Shown: one piece after another, positions 27,401-44,574 of the stretch
How positions within the stretch are numbered: the stretch's first letter is position 1
How the letters are laid out: the number at the start of each line of letters is the position of its first letter
Assembly: GCA_921293015.1 (NCBI GenBank)
Contig: OV121088.1
Span: forward strand, 6,385,882-6,449,881
Reading direction: 5' to 3'
From: Phorcus lineatus
Taxonomy: Eukaryota; Mollusca; Gastropoda; Trochida; Trochidae
Length of the DNA: 64,000 nt
Translations under genes and position numbers: made by a program
Notes under the pieces: generated by a model
Databases searched by the model: none
What the model was told of the DNA's origin: nothing
The model's input: only the letters and a program-made list of their open reading frames with translations

Positions 27401-28208
27401 GGAATAAAAGCAAATCTAAAATAGGTTAACATCCTCAATTTCAAACAGCATGTGCAAATTAAACGTTAATTGAATTATAAATAGAACTGAATGAAAAATG
27501 TTTTTGAATTCTACAATCAAATTAAAAACATAATTAGTCAAAAATTTTAAGTAGTTAATTGGAAATTGCAACGAATTTATTCTATTAACAATTATCAAAA
27601 ATTTCACTGATCAAGTGGGACGCAAAAATAGAAAAAAATTCGAGTAATTCCATTTTTACTTTAGGTAGTTTGTCGTAATGTAGATATCAAAAGCAATTTC
27701 TGATTGTAAATAATATAAAATCCTATAAATTTTGTAAGTAAAGAAATTTTGTTGAGTTACATATTTGAACAGAATGATTACCTATTCTTGTAGACTTAAA
27801 TGGGTAAGGAAGGAAAAAATGGTCGCCACATTATAATATCTGCCATCGTTTTGATTGGTGCTTTATTTACTTAAAGATAAACTATTTAGAGCTTGCCGTA
27901 TGATTATCTTTTTCACGTGGCCTTTGCCACTTCCTTGTCAACACATGACAATATTTAATTTGGACACATCGGACATGAACAGATTTTATTCATTTGTAAT
28001 TACTTGCATGCTGATTCTGAGTAAGTGACTTATTATATAGCGCTGCTTGAGCAATATTTCAACCATTTGCGGCTGGCCTTACACAAAACGAAGAAAATGT
28101 TTTTCTGAACTAGGATCAAGTGCTTAAGTTTCCCTCAGCTAGGCCTTGTCATAATAAAGCCTTTAACACGCAATCTATATTCGTAACTGTTTTGAAGAAT
28201 GTTCTCCT

Positions 28209-28543
28209 CAGGGGCGTAGGAGCGAATTTGAATTTGGGGGGGCTTGAATTGAAATTTTGTAACCAAAAAAAACAAAAAAACTTGCTGGCTGCTTATCCCA
28301 TCTTATCATCAATTAGGACATAATACTGAAGTCAGTTTAATTCCTTGTTTGATTGGATGTTTTAGTTCTACCCTCAGAGTAGTTTTAGAACTACCCTCAA
28401 AGTAGTGCATAGTAACTGTTTTGTAACAATACTAGACCAGTTATTGGGAAATATGTAGTAGAAAGGGGAAAATAGTCATTTTGACAAAAAAAAACATTTC
28501 GAAAAAAAGTGGGGGGGGGGGGGGCTAAGCTCCCCTAAGCAGC

Positions 28544-28575
<32 letters not shown>

Positions 28576-28586
28576 CTACGCCCCTA
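28209..28586. mobile_element. 378-bp element with GGGGCGTAGGA inverted ends and CTCCT target duplication
   Basis: It starts CAGGGGCGTAGGAGC and ends GTTCCTACGCCCCTA, an inverted pair of about 12 bp. CTCCT occurs at 28204-28208 and again at 28587-28591. The related site at about 36745-36760 reads TTTTCTCCTTCTTCC with no insert, which supports the boundaries and a 5-bp target duplication. The interior is non-coding and contains GGGGGGGC near the left end and long G and C runs near the right end. The CAGGGG end resembles hAT-type MITEs, but hAT elements usually make 8-bp duplications, so the superfamily is left open. Confidence 0.75.
28511..28570. repeat. G14 / C28 homopolymer pair
   Basis: A run of 14 G (28511-28524) is followed after CTAAGCTCCCCTAAGCAG by a run of 28 C (28543-28570). 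The runs can pair as a hairpin, and the C run could form a quadruplex on the minus strand. Such tracts are length-unstable and prone to sequencing error, so exact counts may be wrong. Confidence 0.85.
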
Positions 28587-29400
28587 CTCCTTCTTCTCGA
28601 GATGCTTGGATTAACTAGATTTCGGCATTATCCGCATTTTAGTGACTATCAAACTCACGTTGCGTTATGATACTGCTTTGTCAACACAATTTGATTCGGA
28701 AATCCATTTCTTGGTACGCCTTACTTACTTGTAGGCACTGATTCCATTTGCATCATGAGAAATTGCAGCAACTTATATCTGCATTCTAAGGAAGATCGTA
28801 TTTTTCAAACATTAAATCCATTTTAGAATTTTAGACGACTGTTATGGGTAGTTTCAGACACAATTCTGACAAGGAGTATCATCTCATCAGCTAGTGTTAT
28901 TTTAACATAGAAAAAAATGTAATGAAGACATGAAGTTATTTCTCAATAGACAGCACATAGATTTTCATTGATAACTCGTAACCTATATTCCTAAATGTTT
29001 TGACGGTTTTCTCGTTCGATCCTAAGATGCTTGGATTAACAACATAGAGTTGGGCATTATCCAGATTATGTGTGATTATCAAACTAACGTTGCTTTATTA
29101 TACTTCCTTGTCAACACGATTTGAATAGGGCATTCACTTCCTGATACAACTAACTTACATGTACATGTATGGACTGATTCCATTTGAACTCTTACTTGTT
29201 CTTTTATTGAAAACAGGAAAATATTTCAACTTGCGCATAAACAGAAATTGCAGCAACTCACAACATTCTAAAGAAAAAACATATTTTAAAAAAACATTTC
29301 ATGCAGTTAAGTTTCTTAAATTTTTCTGGGAATAACTTTCGGACAAAATGCGGACAAAGAGTATAATCTCGACAGGTATTGGTCCCTTAATATTATTTAC
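28587..29400 (+). repeat. Two-copy tandem segment, about 424-bp period
   Basis: GATGCTTGGATTAAC occurs at about 28600 and 29024. After each come matching blocks: GGCATTATCC, GATTATCAAACT.ACGTTGC, CTTGTCAACAC, GATTCCATTTG and AAATTGCAGCAACT. A third, isolated copy is split between 36745-36906 and 42044-42240 by the CACTA-type element. Both copies here show the uninterrupted GATTCCATTTG site. Confidence 0.8.
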
Positions 29401-35900: not shown

Positions 35901-36906
35901 TTTAAAAAAGAAAAAGTAATTTATATGTAACTTGATTTTGACAAATTATGTTTTTCATGTATACAAGGTTTATACTTTCTCGACAAAGACTGTACAAACT
36001 TTTAATGAAAGGCAATGTTTCTTTGGAATCTTTGGCACAAAAGCACAACATTGATTGAAATGTTAACAAGTGAAAATATTAGAATCAACAACAATTTCAT
36101 TTTTCACTGAAATGTAATTTGAATATAATTCATATTTGTTATTCATTCACAGATGTGGCGGTCCGGTTTTCAGCTGATAATATTTAGAAAATAAAAAATA
36201 TTCATTTGATCAATAATCTCTCAATGAAAGAAAATATATGAGATTAAAATTGATGTGTGTATACTTATTTTTGTCAAACAAACTGTTGTTAGCACATCGT
36301 CAAAATCGATTTTTTAATCAGATAAATAACTGATAGAAAGCAGAAATATAGGGTAAGATAAGCTCATAAAATGACAGCAGATTTGTCAATCTTTAGATGA
36401 ATGTACTACTAAAATCGGATTAAATACGTATTCACTTTCACTGTCAAACTCATTATACCTGATAATCCAGAGATGAGGCTTTTATCTAGACCAAAACACA
36501 TTAACCGGGTCATCTATGTCTATCATGTCTTCTTATATTTTGCACAAACAAATGTGTTATATGTGCTTTACGTAATACATTCTTACTTGTCACATAAGGA
36601 AATATTTTAACCATTAGCGGCTGGCCTTATACATTGTGTGTCTAAACCAGGATCAAGTGCTTAATTTCCCTGAACGGAAAAGTGTCGCAACTAAGCCTTT
36701 AACTCGTAACCAATAATCGGAACTGTTTTGATGGATTTTCTCCTTCTTCCAGAGATGCTTGGAGTAACCACACAGAGTTCGACATTGTCTGGATTATGTG
36801 TGATTATCAAACTGACGTTGCTTTATATTACTTCCTTGTCAACACGACTTGATTAGGGCATTCCCTTTTTGATACAACTTACTTACATATATGCACTGAT
36901 TCCATT

Positions 36907-36930
36907 CACTACAAAAATGACTTGGTTTCC
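36907..36930 (+). repeat. CACTA-type left terminal inverted repeat
   Basis: 24 bp starting CACTACAAAAATGAC, identical to the reverse complement of 42020-42043. Similarity stops right after GGTTTCC. Confidence 0.95.
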
Positions 36931-37129
36931 AGAGCACGGAAACTAACATGAAACGACACGGAAACCAATATTTCCACTTGGTATCCAGACAAGGTTTATT
37001 AAGTTTCCATCTGGTTTCCTGAAACTTGAAACTACCAATTTACCCAGTATCCGTTTGGTTTCCATCACGGAACATTACCCACTATCCAAGCGGGATCCAG
37101 TTGGTTTCCATGATGTTAATTTACTGTAG

Positions 37130-37440
37130 GTTTCAATCTAGTTTCCATGTTCAGTTTAATGTTGGTTTCAACCTAGTTTCCATGTTCAGTTTAATGTTGG
37201 TTTCAACCTAGTTTCCATGTTTAGTTTAATGTTGGTTTCTTCCTAGTTTCCATGTTTAGTTTAATGTTGGTTTCAACCTAGTGTCCATGTTTTAGTTTGA
37301 TGTTGGTTCAAACTAGTTTTCATATCCTTATTTATGGTAGGTTTCAACTTGGTTTCCGTGTTTTGTTAGTTTATCGTTGGTTTCAAACTGGTTTCCATAT
37401 CTTTGTATATTGTAGGTTTCAACTTGGTTTCCATGTAGTG
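37130..37440 (+). repeat. 35-bp tandem array in the left subterminal region
   Basis: Units of the form GTTTCAACCTAGTTTCCATG + TTCAGTTTAATGTTG start at 37130, 37165, 37200, 37235 and 37270, exactly 35 bp apart, and then become irregular to about 37440. Each unit carries two TTTCMA-type cores about 12 bp apart. Subterminal arrays of short motifs serve as transposase-binding regions in known CACTA elements; that role here is inferred. Confidence 0.9.
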
Positions 37441-37673
37441 TGTCATCCATGTTGTAGTATTTGATTGGCATATGAATATATTTAATAATAATATTTTCAT
37501 AACCCTCGGTAGAACAGGCATTTGGATAACTATAGTAGAAATGAAAACAGATGGACAGGGGCTTTGAATTTACTATGCAAAATTAGTGAACAACTCTGGT
37601 GCCTTGTTCCGGTGCCGCTCGTTTTGTAAATCAATGAAACACAATTAACAAACACATCAATTACCATCAAATA

Positions 37674-39414
37674 TTTATTGCAATAAAGATATAAAAAAAC
37701 ATTCATGGAAGGTTAAAATATTTACAAGGTAAAGTGTAAGTGTGAATTGTTGGTGGTTCATAGTTTATACCGATCTTTTAAATACTCCTCCTACTATATA
37801 CATACTTTCGAAGAATTAATTAATTTTCAAACGAGTAATAATAAAAAATAAGTTTAGAATTGAATTGACCTTTTATGAAATCTCTCAACTTTATTTGAAG
37901 GCAGGATAATTATTTTCATATCTTCATTAAAACGATTATTTTATGACAGCTATAAATATATATGAAGGATTGTTTAGAAATGCATTTAAATATTCACTGA
38001 AAAATTAACAATCTACAACCGTGTAAAATATAAAAGTTCACCCTGTTCACATTTCAGGTGTTTTGGCGTGGCCTTTATTCTGAAACAGAATAATAGATAA
38101 TTGTTATAAATAAAACAATTGTATAGATACATAAGATATTCATATGAGTACATGAAATTGAGAAAAAATCAATCTTCCAAAGTTAATTCTAGTATTTTCG
38201 CAAGCATACATATCAATTAAGGAAAGTAGTTAACAACACAATTGCTTTATTGATTGACTCTGTTAAGTGGACGGAAGTCACCAATCAATCTGTATGCTTA
38301 TTTAACAATTGAAAGTACTTACTGTGATGATGTGGCCTCTCCCTTTAAAGCCTCCTTGCTTCACTGAACACCTTAGAAAAACAAATTATATGTCAAAGTC
38401 TTATCTTATCTTAAAGTTAATCTTCTAAATATTGACATAAGTCAAGCAGATTTTTAAAAATCAATTGTTTCATTTCTATCTAGCAAACTGATATCTTTTT
38501 ACTTTAAAAAACTCATTTTACTATATTCTTATAAGTTGATTAAGGCAAAACCATTAAGTTTGAGACTTGCACATTTAAATAGTATCCAAAGAGAAAACCC
38601 CACTTAGTTGAAATCGAATTTGAAATAAATCAATAGTTTAATTACTGATAACGTTTTTTCATCTTGTTGAAAGTCTACTTATTGACAGAAAACCTACATA
38701 CTATAGATGGAAACAAATAGATATAGTATAAATTGACAGAAATATGAAATCCGAAACTAAATTCTTGTTCTAAGTCAAATCAATTGATGTCAAGTACTCC
38801 CATATTACAAGACAGTTACATTCGATTAAACATATCAATCAATTTAAACAACCAATTGACTTGGCTGCACTACCTATTGAATTCTCCAATCTAAACAGTT
38901 CAGTAGTATACTGCTTGATTATTCAAGAATTAGGTCAGCATGCTGACTGTGACATTACCTGTTGCATAATCCACTTCCTTTGTCTAAGCTCACGGCTGTC
39001 ATGGTTCAGTGCACCCTTGTGTAAACAATGTCATATCTTCAGCTGAAAATTGTTAAATAAAGGGAACTTAGTGACCCATCTATATACAGGTAGACACAAT
39101 ATAATAACTTGATGGCAATGAACATTTAAAATTTCTTATAAAACACACCAATCAATGTAGTTTGTCAGTTAAAAACACTCATCAGTTCTACTGAGTGTGA
39201 AGCCAACTTTTCAGAAATGACTTATTCAGCTCTTTCACGGAAGTTTAAACACAGTTTATAAGAGCAATTTAAGTGATTTTGATGCAGTAATGGGGTACTT
39301 ACTTTGGTATCCTTTACTGTAGAACTGCCTTTGAACCTTTTACTCAGCTGTGAAATTATATACAGTCGTTTATGATGATGGCGGCCATGTTTGTCTCCTT
39401 CATTAGTGAATGTC
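37674..39414 (-). pseudogene. Exon-like pieces inside the CACTA-type element, unknown origin
   Basis: Minus-strand candidates with good splice signals: 39414-39303 (acceptor ACACAG, donor AAA|GTAAGTACC; open frame includes DKHGRHHHKRLYIISQLSKR), 39042-38959 (acceptor TTTTCAG, donor CAG|GTAATG; HDSRELRQRKWIMQQ with one upstream TGA), 38371-38323 (acceptor TTCTAAG, donor ACA|GTAAGTAC) and 38079-38047 (acceptor CTGTTTCAG, NKGHAKTPEM then TGA). AATAAA lies downstream at 37679-37674. The first two join in phase 0 but the second contains a stop; the third does not continue that phase. I recognise no family. Either this is decayed transposon-encoded protein or captured host exons, as CACTA elements are known to carry. 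Confidence 0.35.
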
Positions 39415-40001
39415 CTGTGTCCGGTCAGGCCAGGTGTCAAGCAGGAAGTGTTATGCAATAGCCAGTTGAAGTGATTAGAGGTTTTTGTCTAGCCTCATTA
39501 GGAGTGAAGTGAAATGTATTACTGTTGTAGAGATACGAAAAAGGTGATTGTATACTAACAGAAGTGTATTCGAAAGAGTTATGTTCAAGGATTGTGATAA
39601 AAAAACGTATTCTTCTTAGTTTTTTTCGTAATGTTATATAACATTCCATGAAAATCTTTTGAAATAAAATATGGAAATACGTATCAAGACCAAGATATTA
39701 AGAATTTATTTTTCTATTAGATGGATGCTGATGCAAATATTAACCCAAATGTCAAATTGTTTGTTTCCTAAAGTAACTTGTTTACATAATTTTTGATCAT
39801 GTTTAGTTAATAATTGATATAATTACAAATTAAATACGAAGATGAGTGAATAAACTATCGAAATGATATTGAATCTATAAAAATAAAACCTTTACTATCA
39901 GGTTTTCTGTATGAGCAATTAATCTGATGATTCAAAAGAAGAAAAGAGGACATCAGCTCTGAATGTTGTGATAGACAACCCGACACAATACGAGTTTACA
40001 T

Positions 40002-40445
40002 TTAAAGGGCCACTCTGTGATTTTCATAACTTATAATTTACCTTTGATACTAACCTAAATGTCATATGTGGTGATATAAAATCAAAACATCTTAACTTTT
40101 AATGTCCAAATAACATATGTTTGACAAATACTGGTTTTCCATGCAAATGTAAAACAGCCTTATAAATGCACACAGTTATATAACCTGACAAATGCTATCA
40201 ACTCCTAACTGCCTTTCTGGCTGTTTTAGATAAGTTTCCAAAATTACGTTTGACTGTTTGACGCGCGCCACTGTCCGGTTTTCGATCATAATTCCGACGT
40301 TTTTCCTTCATATTGTCACTGTAAAAAACTACTAAGCTTTAAAATATGTATTTTTGGTAACAGTCGATGCTATACGATCAAATGACCCATTGATTAAGTT
40401 TGGCATATATGATTCCAACAACTCACGGAGTGGCTCTAAGAATAA
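40002..40445 (-). mobile_element. MITE nested in the CACTA-type element
   Basis: The ends form an imperfect inverted repeat (AAAGGGCCACTCTGTGA against GTGAGTGGCTC-type sequence: ACTCACGGAGTGGCTCT). The interior matches the reverse complement of 8908-9378. TTAA is present at the left edge; the right edge reads TAAGAA. This is the more complete of the two copies in the window, about 444 bp and non-coding. Confidence 0.7.
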
Positions 40446-41584
40446 AAGATCTATTAGGGAAACTAATAAGCTATAGCGCTTACCAACAATGCCTATCGTA
40501 CTGTATTTATAACGAGTCACACTAAGGTAATCAATCTAAAGTATTATTTGGCAAATGTGCATGCATTCCGGTTTTAAAACCTATTCTATAAGACCAGAAA
40601 TATTCAATGCAAATGTGCTTACGAAATCAAGTATTTTTAAGAAACATTATTTCTTCCTTACTTATCAGTTAAGAGATTAACGTTAACTCAAAAGCTGTAC
40701 AAATTAATCATAGAGTTTTATTTCTCTATGCCTACTTCAGTCGTGTTAATGTTTTCATTATTGATTGCAAGTAAAGAATAATACGTACTTAATTGCATCG
40801 ATAGAAATCTAAAGTGAGTGCCTATACCCTTATATGCCTTGAAATAGCAGAGTTGAGTCCAAAAAATCCTGCTTTAGTGCATTTCAGTCATTTCCTAAGC
40901 AACCAAACTCATCTTCACGTTATTGACCCATGAGAATGTGAGAATTGATTATCTGATTTCTAATCTGAATTTTCAATTTGAAATAACATCAATTTGAGTA
41001 ACTGTTGTCCATTACTAAACAAACAACCAAATCTGTTTGCAACTTATTGGCTGATAAAGGGATTTAGCTAACAAGGTAACAATCAACAATCACGACTATT
41101 TATCGTGGTGGACAGTTGATACTTTTTCTCTTCATATTTCATTGGTCCATTAATAAATTGAAGGCACCGCCCATCTCCATTAATATAACCAATTACTGTT
41201 CATGTCAAAAACATTCACTTTAATCCTTTTATATATGTAGATGTAATGTAAATTTCTTATTACGACGATAACATTTATTCATATCAGAGTAAAGAAAGCC
41301 ATCTATTCTAAGAAATTAAACATATAGAGAAAATGTGTGTTCATGTGTAAAATTTGGTGCATTGTTTTTATCTTGCCTATTAAGTCCTGACCGTTGATGT
41401 TAATGATTTGTTAAAGATCATAATATGATGGAAAACAGTTTCACTCCTTCAAGAGGATTTGTTGTTAAACATGCCGCAAAGTAGCAGAAGTATTGAAACT
41501 TTGAAGATGTTTTGTAAGGGTTAATCTTAAATCCAAGATCCTGAAATGAACAGTAATAGTAAAGATACGCTCAACCATTGTATC

Positions 41585-42019
41585 TTGTTGGTTTCCATTC
41601 CGGAAATATATAAAACCTGAATGCCAAATGGATTCCAACAGGAAACCAAGTTACTAAGTTTCCGTGGATGGATACCAAGTGGATGCCAGACTACTCAAAT
41701 ACATATGCTTTTGAAAAAACTAAATAATTTGTCAATCTATTCATTTTAAGTTCAAAACAAGATTAGAAACCAACATGAAACTTAACCTTATGGTTTCATG
41801 TTAGTTTCCGTTCAATGAAATCGTCATTTGCACTTTCCAGAAATGGAAACCAACTGGATACTCATGACCACAGTTTCATGTTTGTTTCCATATATGGATA
41901 TATAACAAATCAAAGAATCCAAAATGGATTTTAGCTGGAAACCAAGTTACTTAGTTTCAGTGAATGGATACCAACTGGATACCCCAATTACCCACTTTCC
42001 TGCTGGTTTCCAGAATTCA
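41585..42019 (+). repeat. Right subterminal GGAAACCA/TGGATACC repeats
   Basis: Irregularly spaced copies of GGAAACCAAGTTACT, GGATACCAACTGGATA and GTTTCATGTT.GTTTCC occur in both orientations. They mirror the motif content of the left 36931-37440 region, although the tight 35-bp array is absent, so the two ends are asymmetric. Confidence 0.8.
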
Positions 42020-42043
42020 GGAAACCAAGTCATTTTTGTAGTG
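42020..42043 (-). repeat. CACTA-type right terminal inverted repeat
   Basis: Reverse complement of the left end, closing in TTTTTGTAGTG and followed by the ATT target duplication. Confidence 0.95.
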
Positions 42044-42448
42044 ATTTGTACTTTTACTTTTTCTTTTATTGAAAATACGAAAATATTTAAGCTGGCTCAT
42101 AAACAGAAATTGCAGCAACTTAAAGAATAACATTTAGAAAACATTTCATGCATTTAGTAATCTTATATTTTTGAGTGAATAACTTTTGGTCAAAATGTAG
42201 AAAATTGAAAACATGATTTTTTTCTAGAGACATCACATTGATTTTTCTCCTAGTTTTAATTTCGTAACACATTAATCAAATATCATATGCCCTAAAAGCA
42301 TTGAATGATAAATATAAGTTAAAAAGTGCTTCGATCTCATCAGAGATTCTTTGGTGTAGTAGTTACAAAGTTGATGTGACAAAAAAGATATGTCTTGGAA
42401 CACTTACAGTGATGAATTTCGTCAAAGGCATTTAGGCGTTGGTGTAGT

Positions 42449-42541: not shown

Positions 42542-42663
42542 ATAGTGATTGTGAAAGCAGAAATTATGTATTGACGTGTATAACAAGAAAACACATCACA
42601 AAGACTTGTAAGTGAGTTCAAATTCAGATTTTTGGCATTTTGCATCTTTTTTCTTGTCACAAG

Positions 42664-42927
42664 ATGGCGGGTAAACGTAAAGCTATCACTTTTGATACTA
42701 AACTTCGTATCATAGAGGCCGTTGATTTGGGTGTAAAATCTAAGAAAAACATCGCTTTGGACTTTGATATTCCAAAATCTACTTTGAGTGGCATCATTAA
42801 GAATCGCGAAGTGTTTGATTCCCTCGCAGATGTATGTCAAGCTGTCGACAAAATGAAGAAGGCCAAACGAGGTATGCAAACGAAGATTGCAGACTTTGTC
42901 AAACGTACTAGTGCTATGGATATGTAA
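42664..42927 (+). CDS. Tigger/pogo-type CENP-B-like DNA-binding protein, internally deleted
   Basis: The start chosen is MAGK at 42664, because an in-frame ATG at 42640 lies in non-conserved flank. The 87-residue product begins with KRKAITFDTKLRIIEAVDLG and continues to IPKSTLSGIIKNRE. This is the N-terminal helix-turn-helix of CENP-B/pogo transposases, which binds transposon ends. Full Tigger transposases are several hundred residues with a second helix-turn-helix and a DDE domain; both are absent. The C-terminus, KRGMQTKIADFVKRTS, resembles the basic 'ITDFF' tail of full-length Tigger proteins, so head and tail appear joined by a large in-frame internal deletion. The frame is intact. The right inverted end lies at 43060-43130; the left one is missing. 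It could be an inert deletion derivative or a small DNA-binding peptide. Confidence 0.8.
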   Translation: MAGKRKAITFDTKLRIIEAVDLGVKSKKNIALDFDIPKSTLSGIIKNREVFDSLADVCQAVDKMKKAKRGMQTKIADFVKRTSAMDM

Positions 42928-43685: not shown

Positions 43686-44574
43686 AGGCTTGCTCAAAGA
43701 CTGAACAGAGCTGAACGCAACAACGCAGACTGCAAGCAGGAGCGACGCAGCGAGATGTTGCAACACACTTTGGTGTGTACATGCCCAGACAGACCATCTC
43801 TTCATTGTGGACCCGTTTCAACACCTGAAAGAGCGTTGATGATAGGCCAAGGTCAGACAGACCAAGGGTAAGTACAAGGGCCCAAGATCGGTACATCCGA
43901 CTGCTCCACCTTCGGGAACGCACCAGGACAGCAACGTCAACAACAACGCAGATACCAGGCCTGCGTTGAATTTCCGACCAAACGGTACGCAACAGGCTGA
44001 GACAGGCTGAACTTTTTCCACGACGACCGGTTGGACGTCCCGTTTTCTGCTTCGATGAAGTGATGGACGAGCACGTATACCAACGTTATGCTGCCAACTG
44101 TGTTCAGGAGGTTGTCCCATTTGGAGGTGGTCAGTGTCATGGTGTGGGCCGGCATTCGTCACTGTGTTAGGACACCCCTTGTGCATGTTGTGGGTAACCT
44201 CACAGGAGTACGGTACTTGATCCTACAGCCTTACTTTATTCCTCACGTCAACGTCCATGGTGCTCTCTTTCAACAGGACAATGCTCGACCACATGTTGCA
44301 CGTGTTTGTCAAGACTTTTTACAGCATAACAATGTCCAGACATTGCCATGGCTAGCCAGGTCACCAGATTTGTCACCAATTGAGCATCCCTGGGACGAAC
44401 TGGATCGAAGCGTGCGCAGTAGGAATCCACCACCCCAAACACTCCCAGGACTTCTTGCAGCACTTCAGCACGAATAGCAGAACATTCCACAGGCTGATTG
44501 ACAACTTGATTGCATCCATGGGTCGTCGGTGCCAAGCAATAATCAATGCCAATGGTGGCCATACCCGATACTGA
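43686..44574 (+). pseudogene. Tc1-like (DD34E) transposase pseudogene
   Basis: The N-terminal helix-turn-helix is visible (LQAGATQRDVATHFGV, TISSLWTRF), followed by RAQDRYIRLLHLRERT and ISDQTVRNRLR from the second DNA-binding subdomain. Next comes MVWAGI, then FQQDNARPHVARV with the second catalytic Asp and SPDLSPIEHPWDELDR with the Glu, 34 residues apart (DD34E). The last part ends INANGGHTRY at the natural stop (44572-44574). The segment around the first catalytic Asp is deleted near 44040. Frameshifts or stops lie near 43828, 43970, 44130 and 44475. GC content is clearly higher than the surroundings. It sits near the right edge of block R. Terminal repeats were not identified. Confidence 0.9.

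Follow-up and report, generated by a model that had tools for sequence, protein, structure and literature searches.

Studies have shown that CACTA/EnSpm transposons are defined by their CACTA..TAGTG termini (PMC4158355, PMC12730594; here and below, comparisons with published systems draw on the available parts of the cited sources). For example, the soybean Tgmt* elements (PMC2613891), those of Chenopodium (PMC8978399) and maize En/Spm combine CACTA ends with a 3-bp target-site duplication, and the plant elements further have asymmetric subterminal arrays of direct and inverted motifs, a TNP2/Transposase_21 transposase in a long element, and non-autonomous relatives that retain the ends (PMC2613891, PMC8978399). 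In this study, a 64,000-nucleotide stretch of the Phorcus lineatus genome (contig OV121088.1, positions 6,385,882 to 6,449,881, forward strand; hereafter the window) was analysed. We believe, with a probability of roughly 0.92, that positions 36907-42043 of the window are a full-length member of a young non-autonomous CACTA/EnSpm family of cut-and-paste transposons, whose TNP2-type enzyme comes from elsewhere, the likeliest source being a 12.7-kb element. All CACTA/EnSpm features that could be judged clearly were present, the transposase in a related element elsewhere in the genome.

CACTA elements are best known from plants. They are stated to be known in animals, too (PMC8978399). The Daphnia pulex CACTA families, of ten types, were sorted by their terminal inverted repeats (TIRs), as the animal family here can be (PMC2884549), and EnSpm/CMC elements have been tabulated in oysters (PMC9679248) and counted across molluscs (PMC10294476). 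The mollusc families share superfamily and phylum with the present one and, in these two sources, are known by counts and not by ends or duplications. Among the matches listed in open-licence titles and abstract openings, no mollusc CACTA family was found described by its ends and duplications, and such a description may exist. The initial annotation had read the element as CACTA/EnSpm and had regarded animal elements with such plant-like ends as less well described. The type held, on the ends, the duplications, the arrays and the Transposase_21 match in a relative, whereas the novelty is smaller than supposed, because EnSpm/CMC elements were already recorded in molluscs (PMC9679248, PMC10294476) and CACTA elements in Daphnia (PMC2884549). 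The general understanding of CACTA elements is unchanged by this finding. What it adds is an animal CACTA family in which both halves, the non-autonomous copies and a probable helper with an open transposase frame, are known in detail, including ends, duplications and an empty site.

The unit of about 5.1 kb starts with CACTACAAAAATGACTTGGTTTCC (36907-36930) and finishes with GGAAACCAAGTCATTTTTGTAGTG (42020-42043), both given on the plus strand. These TIRs are perfect reverse complements over exactly 24 bp and give the CACTA..TAGTG termini (5'-CAC..GTG-3') of the superfamily. ATT adjoins both outer ends (36904-36906 and 42044-42046) as a 3-bp target-site duplication, which was read directly on both sides and, for the left copy, also against an empty paralogue. 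The left 560 bp contain 8 copies of the motif GGTTTCC/GGAAACC and the right 480 bp contain 6, and the 4,097-bp middle has none; in 300 dinucleotide shuffles of each end, the mean counts were 0.18 (left) and 0.12 (right), with a maximum of 2. The left subterminal region (36931-37440, plus strand) holds GGTTTCC motifs and a 35-bp tandem array of 9.3 copies (37104-37436), and is presumed to be the recognition region for the transposase or a DNA-binding protein. In the right subterminal region (41574-42019, plus strand), GGAAACC/GGTTTCC and GGATA motifs stand in both direct and inverted orientation. Both ends thus have arrays of short motifs, direct and inverted, as in the plant elements. Perfect 24-bp inverted ends, ATT on both sides and subterminal motif arrays had all been noted initially, and all three were borne out by direct reading and by the shuffle control. 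The exact TIR was absent from viral_contigs, and Rfam at gathering thresholds gave nothing in the window.

When the two flanks were joined with a single ATT, they matched 28972-29350 (plus strand) across the junction, which lies near 29175-29185 (80.3% over 380 columns, E 7e-96). Comparison with this paralogue of the target repeat, which lacks the insert, therefore reveals both the insertion and its duplication. Two such empty sites had been proposed, at 28740-28750 and 29175-29185. The second stood, since the joined flanks align across it, whereas the first keeps GATTCCATTTG but aligns well on the left side only; it lies in a second, more diverged copy of the target repeat (28587-28750, plus strand), which matches only the left flank. 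Upstream of the element, copies of its target sequence are clustered at 28053-29350, and the target is itself a dispersed repeat.

The window's contig is C13 of the 958-Mb host genome (C and L numbers are labels of contigs and fetched loci). Allowing up to 2 mismatches, the TIR was found at 596 genome sites (291 forward, 305 reverse; 77 exact), and the reversed-pattern control gave 0 sites in the genome. The left 534 bp as query matched at least 45 places (40 of 397 candidates scored), 17 of these 45 at 98-100% identity over the whole query; the right 459 bp matched at least 41 places (40 of 370 candidates scored), of which 16 reach at least 97% across the entire query. For 20 of the 45 left-end matches, the surrounding 9.9 kb was fetched as a locus. 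Because L012 and L014 show the same complete element, it was counted once, and seven loci (L011, L015, L018, L019, L022, L026, and L027) lack both ends of one element in the fetched stretch. The initial annotation had asked for further copies sharing both ends with 3-bp duplications. Such copies were found. Both ends were read in 12 distinct relatives, and 11 of these carry matching 3-bp duplications (L028 counted with its outer right end), namely TTA, AAT, TTC, ATA, TAT, CAC, ACA, ATA, ATT, GTT, and TAT. Segmental duplication, or a chance inverted repeat instead of a transposon, would suit flanks that sit in repeated sequence, and we give it practically no credence against dispersed copies on many contigs with differing flanks, exact ends and matched duplications.

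Nine complete copies, the window's included, are 4,869-5,158 bp long and 97.2-99.4% identical, and their variable sites comprise 313 private to one copy and 26 shared. Low divergence with mostly private differences is the pattern that a recent burst from one source would leave. Termini, duplications, the empty site, the many related termini and this low divergence were all observed directly, and the copies look young enough for testing whether the system still moves. On C1 (74373587-74383663; L012, L014, and L015), the left end occurs three times in tandem at an exact 4,035-bp spacing, and the last member is an element of 2,007 bp that has lost part of its interior and is flanked by TAT duplications; this arrangement may reflect either a local tandem duplication or an assembly effect.

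PF02992 (Transposase_21) was found at 10 places in the host genome (17 of 17 candidates scored) and at none in 14 control genomes. By DNA, seven of the ten places (L030-L033 and L035-L037) resemble one transposase at 72-100% over parts; in protein alignment, the remaining three (L029, inside L039; L034; and L038) are 23-35% identical to it. On C16, around L040, this transposase lies in a 12,728-bp element (21174143-21186870) flanked by ACT/ACT. The ends of this element are CACTACAGAAATGACTTGGTTTCC on the left and GGAAACTAAGTCATTTTTGTAGTG on the right, each TIR one base off that of the window's element. Identity to the window element is 80.2% for the left 540 bp (E 7e-130) and 72.6% for the right 281 bp, and the C16 element encodes an 861-amino-acid (aa) open frame that matches Transposase_21/TNP2. 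A second such element on C17 (2538831-2551573) is flanked by ATA/ATA; over the 274 and 70 bp of its ends that were read it is identical to the C16 element, and around the transposase it is 99.9% identical over 3,441 bp, the reading covering the ends and the transposase region. The 3-bp duplication is present in the window, in 11 of 12 distinct relatives, in two transposase-bearing elements and against the empty paralogue. A transposase of another superfamily between related ends would have spoken for a different assignment, and the one found there is of the CACTA type (PF02992).

Two further Transposase_21 frames lie at L039 3280-6039 (minus strand; C25, 920 aa) and L034 184-2703 (minus strand; C37, 840 aa). 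Both have, by eye, an N-terminal C2H2-like motif, and the L039 frame adjoins a long tandem array. L039 was considered as the helper and dropped, its only terminus-like site being a weak, chance-like match.

The 861-aa frame matches Transposase_21 at E 1.4e-16; DUF1258 (0.00011) and DUF4218 (0.0088) were below the Pfam cut-offs. No PDB chain was meaningfully similar to the frame (5 sequences within E 1, led by an antibody chain at E 0.054). The order of residues in the frame is D256, D347, C366-x2-C369, H577-x3-H581, and E601, with both C and both H residues between D347 and E601, in agreement with the order given for EnSpm/CMC in PMC12730594. H577, H581, and E601 are invariant in 7 aligned sequences (one duplicates the first and three are partial), and both D and both C residues are conserved in a two-sequence alignment, the two D residues having been picked by eye from conserved columns. 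D256, D347, and E601 are candidate catalytic residues. Both the order of these candidate motifs and the presence of an open transposase frame between related ends can be read directly. An acceptor-like TCTATTTCAG stands near the start of the frame, which makes upstream exons likely.

As in the present element, Chapaev3 transposons have CAC..GTG ends and 3-bp duplications and live in animals, and Chapaev elements as a whole have CAC/GTG termini, 3-4-bp duplications and many animal hosts (PMC4079192). However, all Chapaev3 elements examined in that source have TWA duplications between A and T as their only target, and their transposase belongs to a different group. The duplications here include TTC, CAC, GTT, ACA, ACT, AAT, and ATT, and the transposase of the related 12.7-kb element matches Transposase_21, which makes a Chapaev3 element at 36907-42043 very improbable. 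SmTRC1 (PMC1636069) and other animal TRC elements such as Spongebob (PMC4298943) are likewise animal DNA transposons with inverted ends, SmTRC1 with a Transposase_21 transposase. In contrast to the CACTA termini and 3-bp duplications here, theirs are CCC termini and 2-bp duplications. Beside the animal TRC elements of PMC1636069, the family here is an animal one with the plant-type set of CACTA ends, 3-bp duplications and subterminal arrays. An SmTRC1-like TRC was ruled out, as neither CCC termini nor a 2-bp duplication was found. piggyBac elements target TTAA, which also counted against a piggyBac reading. The piggyBac families with CACTAG ends (PMC4298943) end in CACTAGA and were ruled out.

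Several observations weigh against a non-autonomous CACTA family served by the 12.7-kb element. In a third copy with the transposase (C17 near 32106372), the final 10 bp of the right end are missing, and no left end was found where one was expected. L028 has two candidate right ends: the inner one, which aligns with that of the window element, is without a matching duplication, and the outer one, 90 bp away, has one; in L025, the right end is damaged and the duplication does not match. DUF4218 is only marginal in the transposase (E 0.0088, below cut-off). The structure prediction of the 861-aa frame was too poor (mean predicted local distance difference test score, pLDDT, 32.4, from a 7-row alignment) to bear on the DDE (RNase H-like) fold. 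A separate subterminal-binding protein of the plant TNPA/TNP1 type was not recognised among 5 short frames of the 12.7-kb element, where the sole Pfam match was below cut-off (E 0.067; introns not resolved). Unlike the plant CACTA/En-Spm elements, the present system has an animal host, no recognised TNPA/TNP1-type second protein among the 5 short frames scanned, and DUF4218 only below the Pfam cut-off. Lastly, the 12.7-kb element matches the 5.1-kb family at only 80% over the left end and 73% over the right, and a closer helper may therefore exist or have existed.

The 5.1-kb family would then be CACTA all the same, and its helper a closer autonomous element that is extinct, missing from the assembly, or too fragmented for PF02992. 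Besides the modest end identity, the right ends of many other relatives resemble the window element's at 92-93%, and TIR positions on C1 pair at roughly 4 to 10 kb, none of these pairs containing a PF02992 place (all among the matches listed). On the other hand, of the seven DNA-similar PF02992 places, three, one on C16 and two on C17, keep the 861-aa frame (the other four have 116-260 aa), and the C16 element's TIRs are one base off at each end. We regard this closer helper as possible, at clearly less than even odds.

In the reading that we favour, the ends of the 5.1-kb unit would supply the cis signals, namely the 24-bp TIR and the subterminal GGTTTCC arrays, while a TNP2-type (Transposase_21) DDE transposase encoded elsewhere would supply the enzyme. 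The likeliest source of the enzyme would be the 12.7-kb element, which has related ends and is bounded by a matching duplication at each of two loci. This enzyme would cleave at CACTA/TAGTG and integrate the element at a 3-bp staggered break, the repair of which would leave the 3-bp duplication. The transposase of the 12.7-kb element may thus move the 5.1-kb family by helper action (cross-mobilisation), with the subterminal arrays as its putative binding sites, and the movement may continue today. A wider proposal is that a CACTA system complete in both parts, and built throughout like those of plants, was recently active in a mollusc, where a few intact copies of the transposase serve hundreds of non-autonomous relatives. 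Among these would be the 5.1-kb family, whose interior is unrelated and may have been captured and be transcribed. We hold this proposal to be doubtful.

The interior of the unit (37441-41573) has no transposase match. The initial annotation had recognised no transposase in the 5.1-kb copy, and we agree: a Pfam scan at E 0.1 of 5 of the 40 internal frames gave no family, none of the 10 PF02992 places of the genome falls in this copy, and the interior has no long open frame. As a further difference from the plant systems, deletion of the 12.7-kb element found does not account for the interior of the 5.1-kb family, and blastn (E 0.001) between the two gave no match beyond the end regions. A dispersed repeat inside the unit (40121-40443) recurs at 9373-8906 of the window, 82-89% identical in three pieces. 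The extra DNA of the longer copies L018, L019, L023, and L027 initially seemed a candidate for the missing transposase; judged by eye, the frames there look reverse transcriptase-like in L018, L019, and L027 and like another transposase type in L023.

On the minus strand, from about 39440 to 37660, GTAAGT/GTAATG donors, TTTCAG-like acceptors and AATAAA signals stand in order (by eye only) and without a long frame, as in a possible non-coding or captured transcript. The unit could accordingly be a Pack-type CACTA in which these exon-like pieces are captured host exons. A diverged neighbour copy in L021 is 90-92% identical in the 150-bp windows of 38857-39456, which contain two of the exon-like pieces, and 80-89% elsewhere, apart from one window at 92%. 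However, L027 shows no such rise (95-97% over the exon-like region, 91-99% elsewhere), most of the region is missing from L028, and neither a Pfam match in the 5 scanned frames nor a long frame was found, which leaves a captured host transcript unlikely.

The initial annotation had also placed the window in a probable mollusc genome, and the host genome bears this out with 16 matches to Haemocyan_bet_s (PF14830), against none in 14 control genomes. The matches form two clusters of eight on C12 (7646582-7661095 and 16557773-16572398), which fit two eight-unit haemocyanin genes, and the best solved relative of one such domain is 3j32 chain A, Hemocyanin isoform 1. To our knowledge, the Haemocyan_bet_s domain is mollusc-specific, and eight-unit haemocyanin genes fit a gastropod. 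These domains support a mollusc host. To the right of the element, the window contains a frame with a CENP-B_N match (42616-42927), which we take to be pogo/Tigger-like, and a fragment with a below-cut-off DDE_3 match (44064-44477; Tc1/mariner-like).

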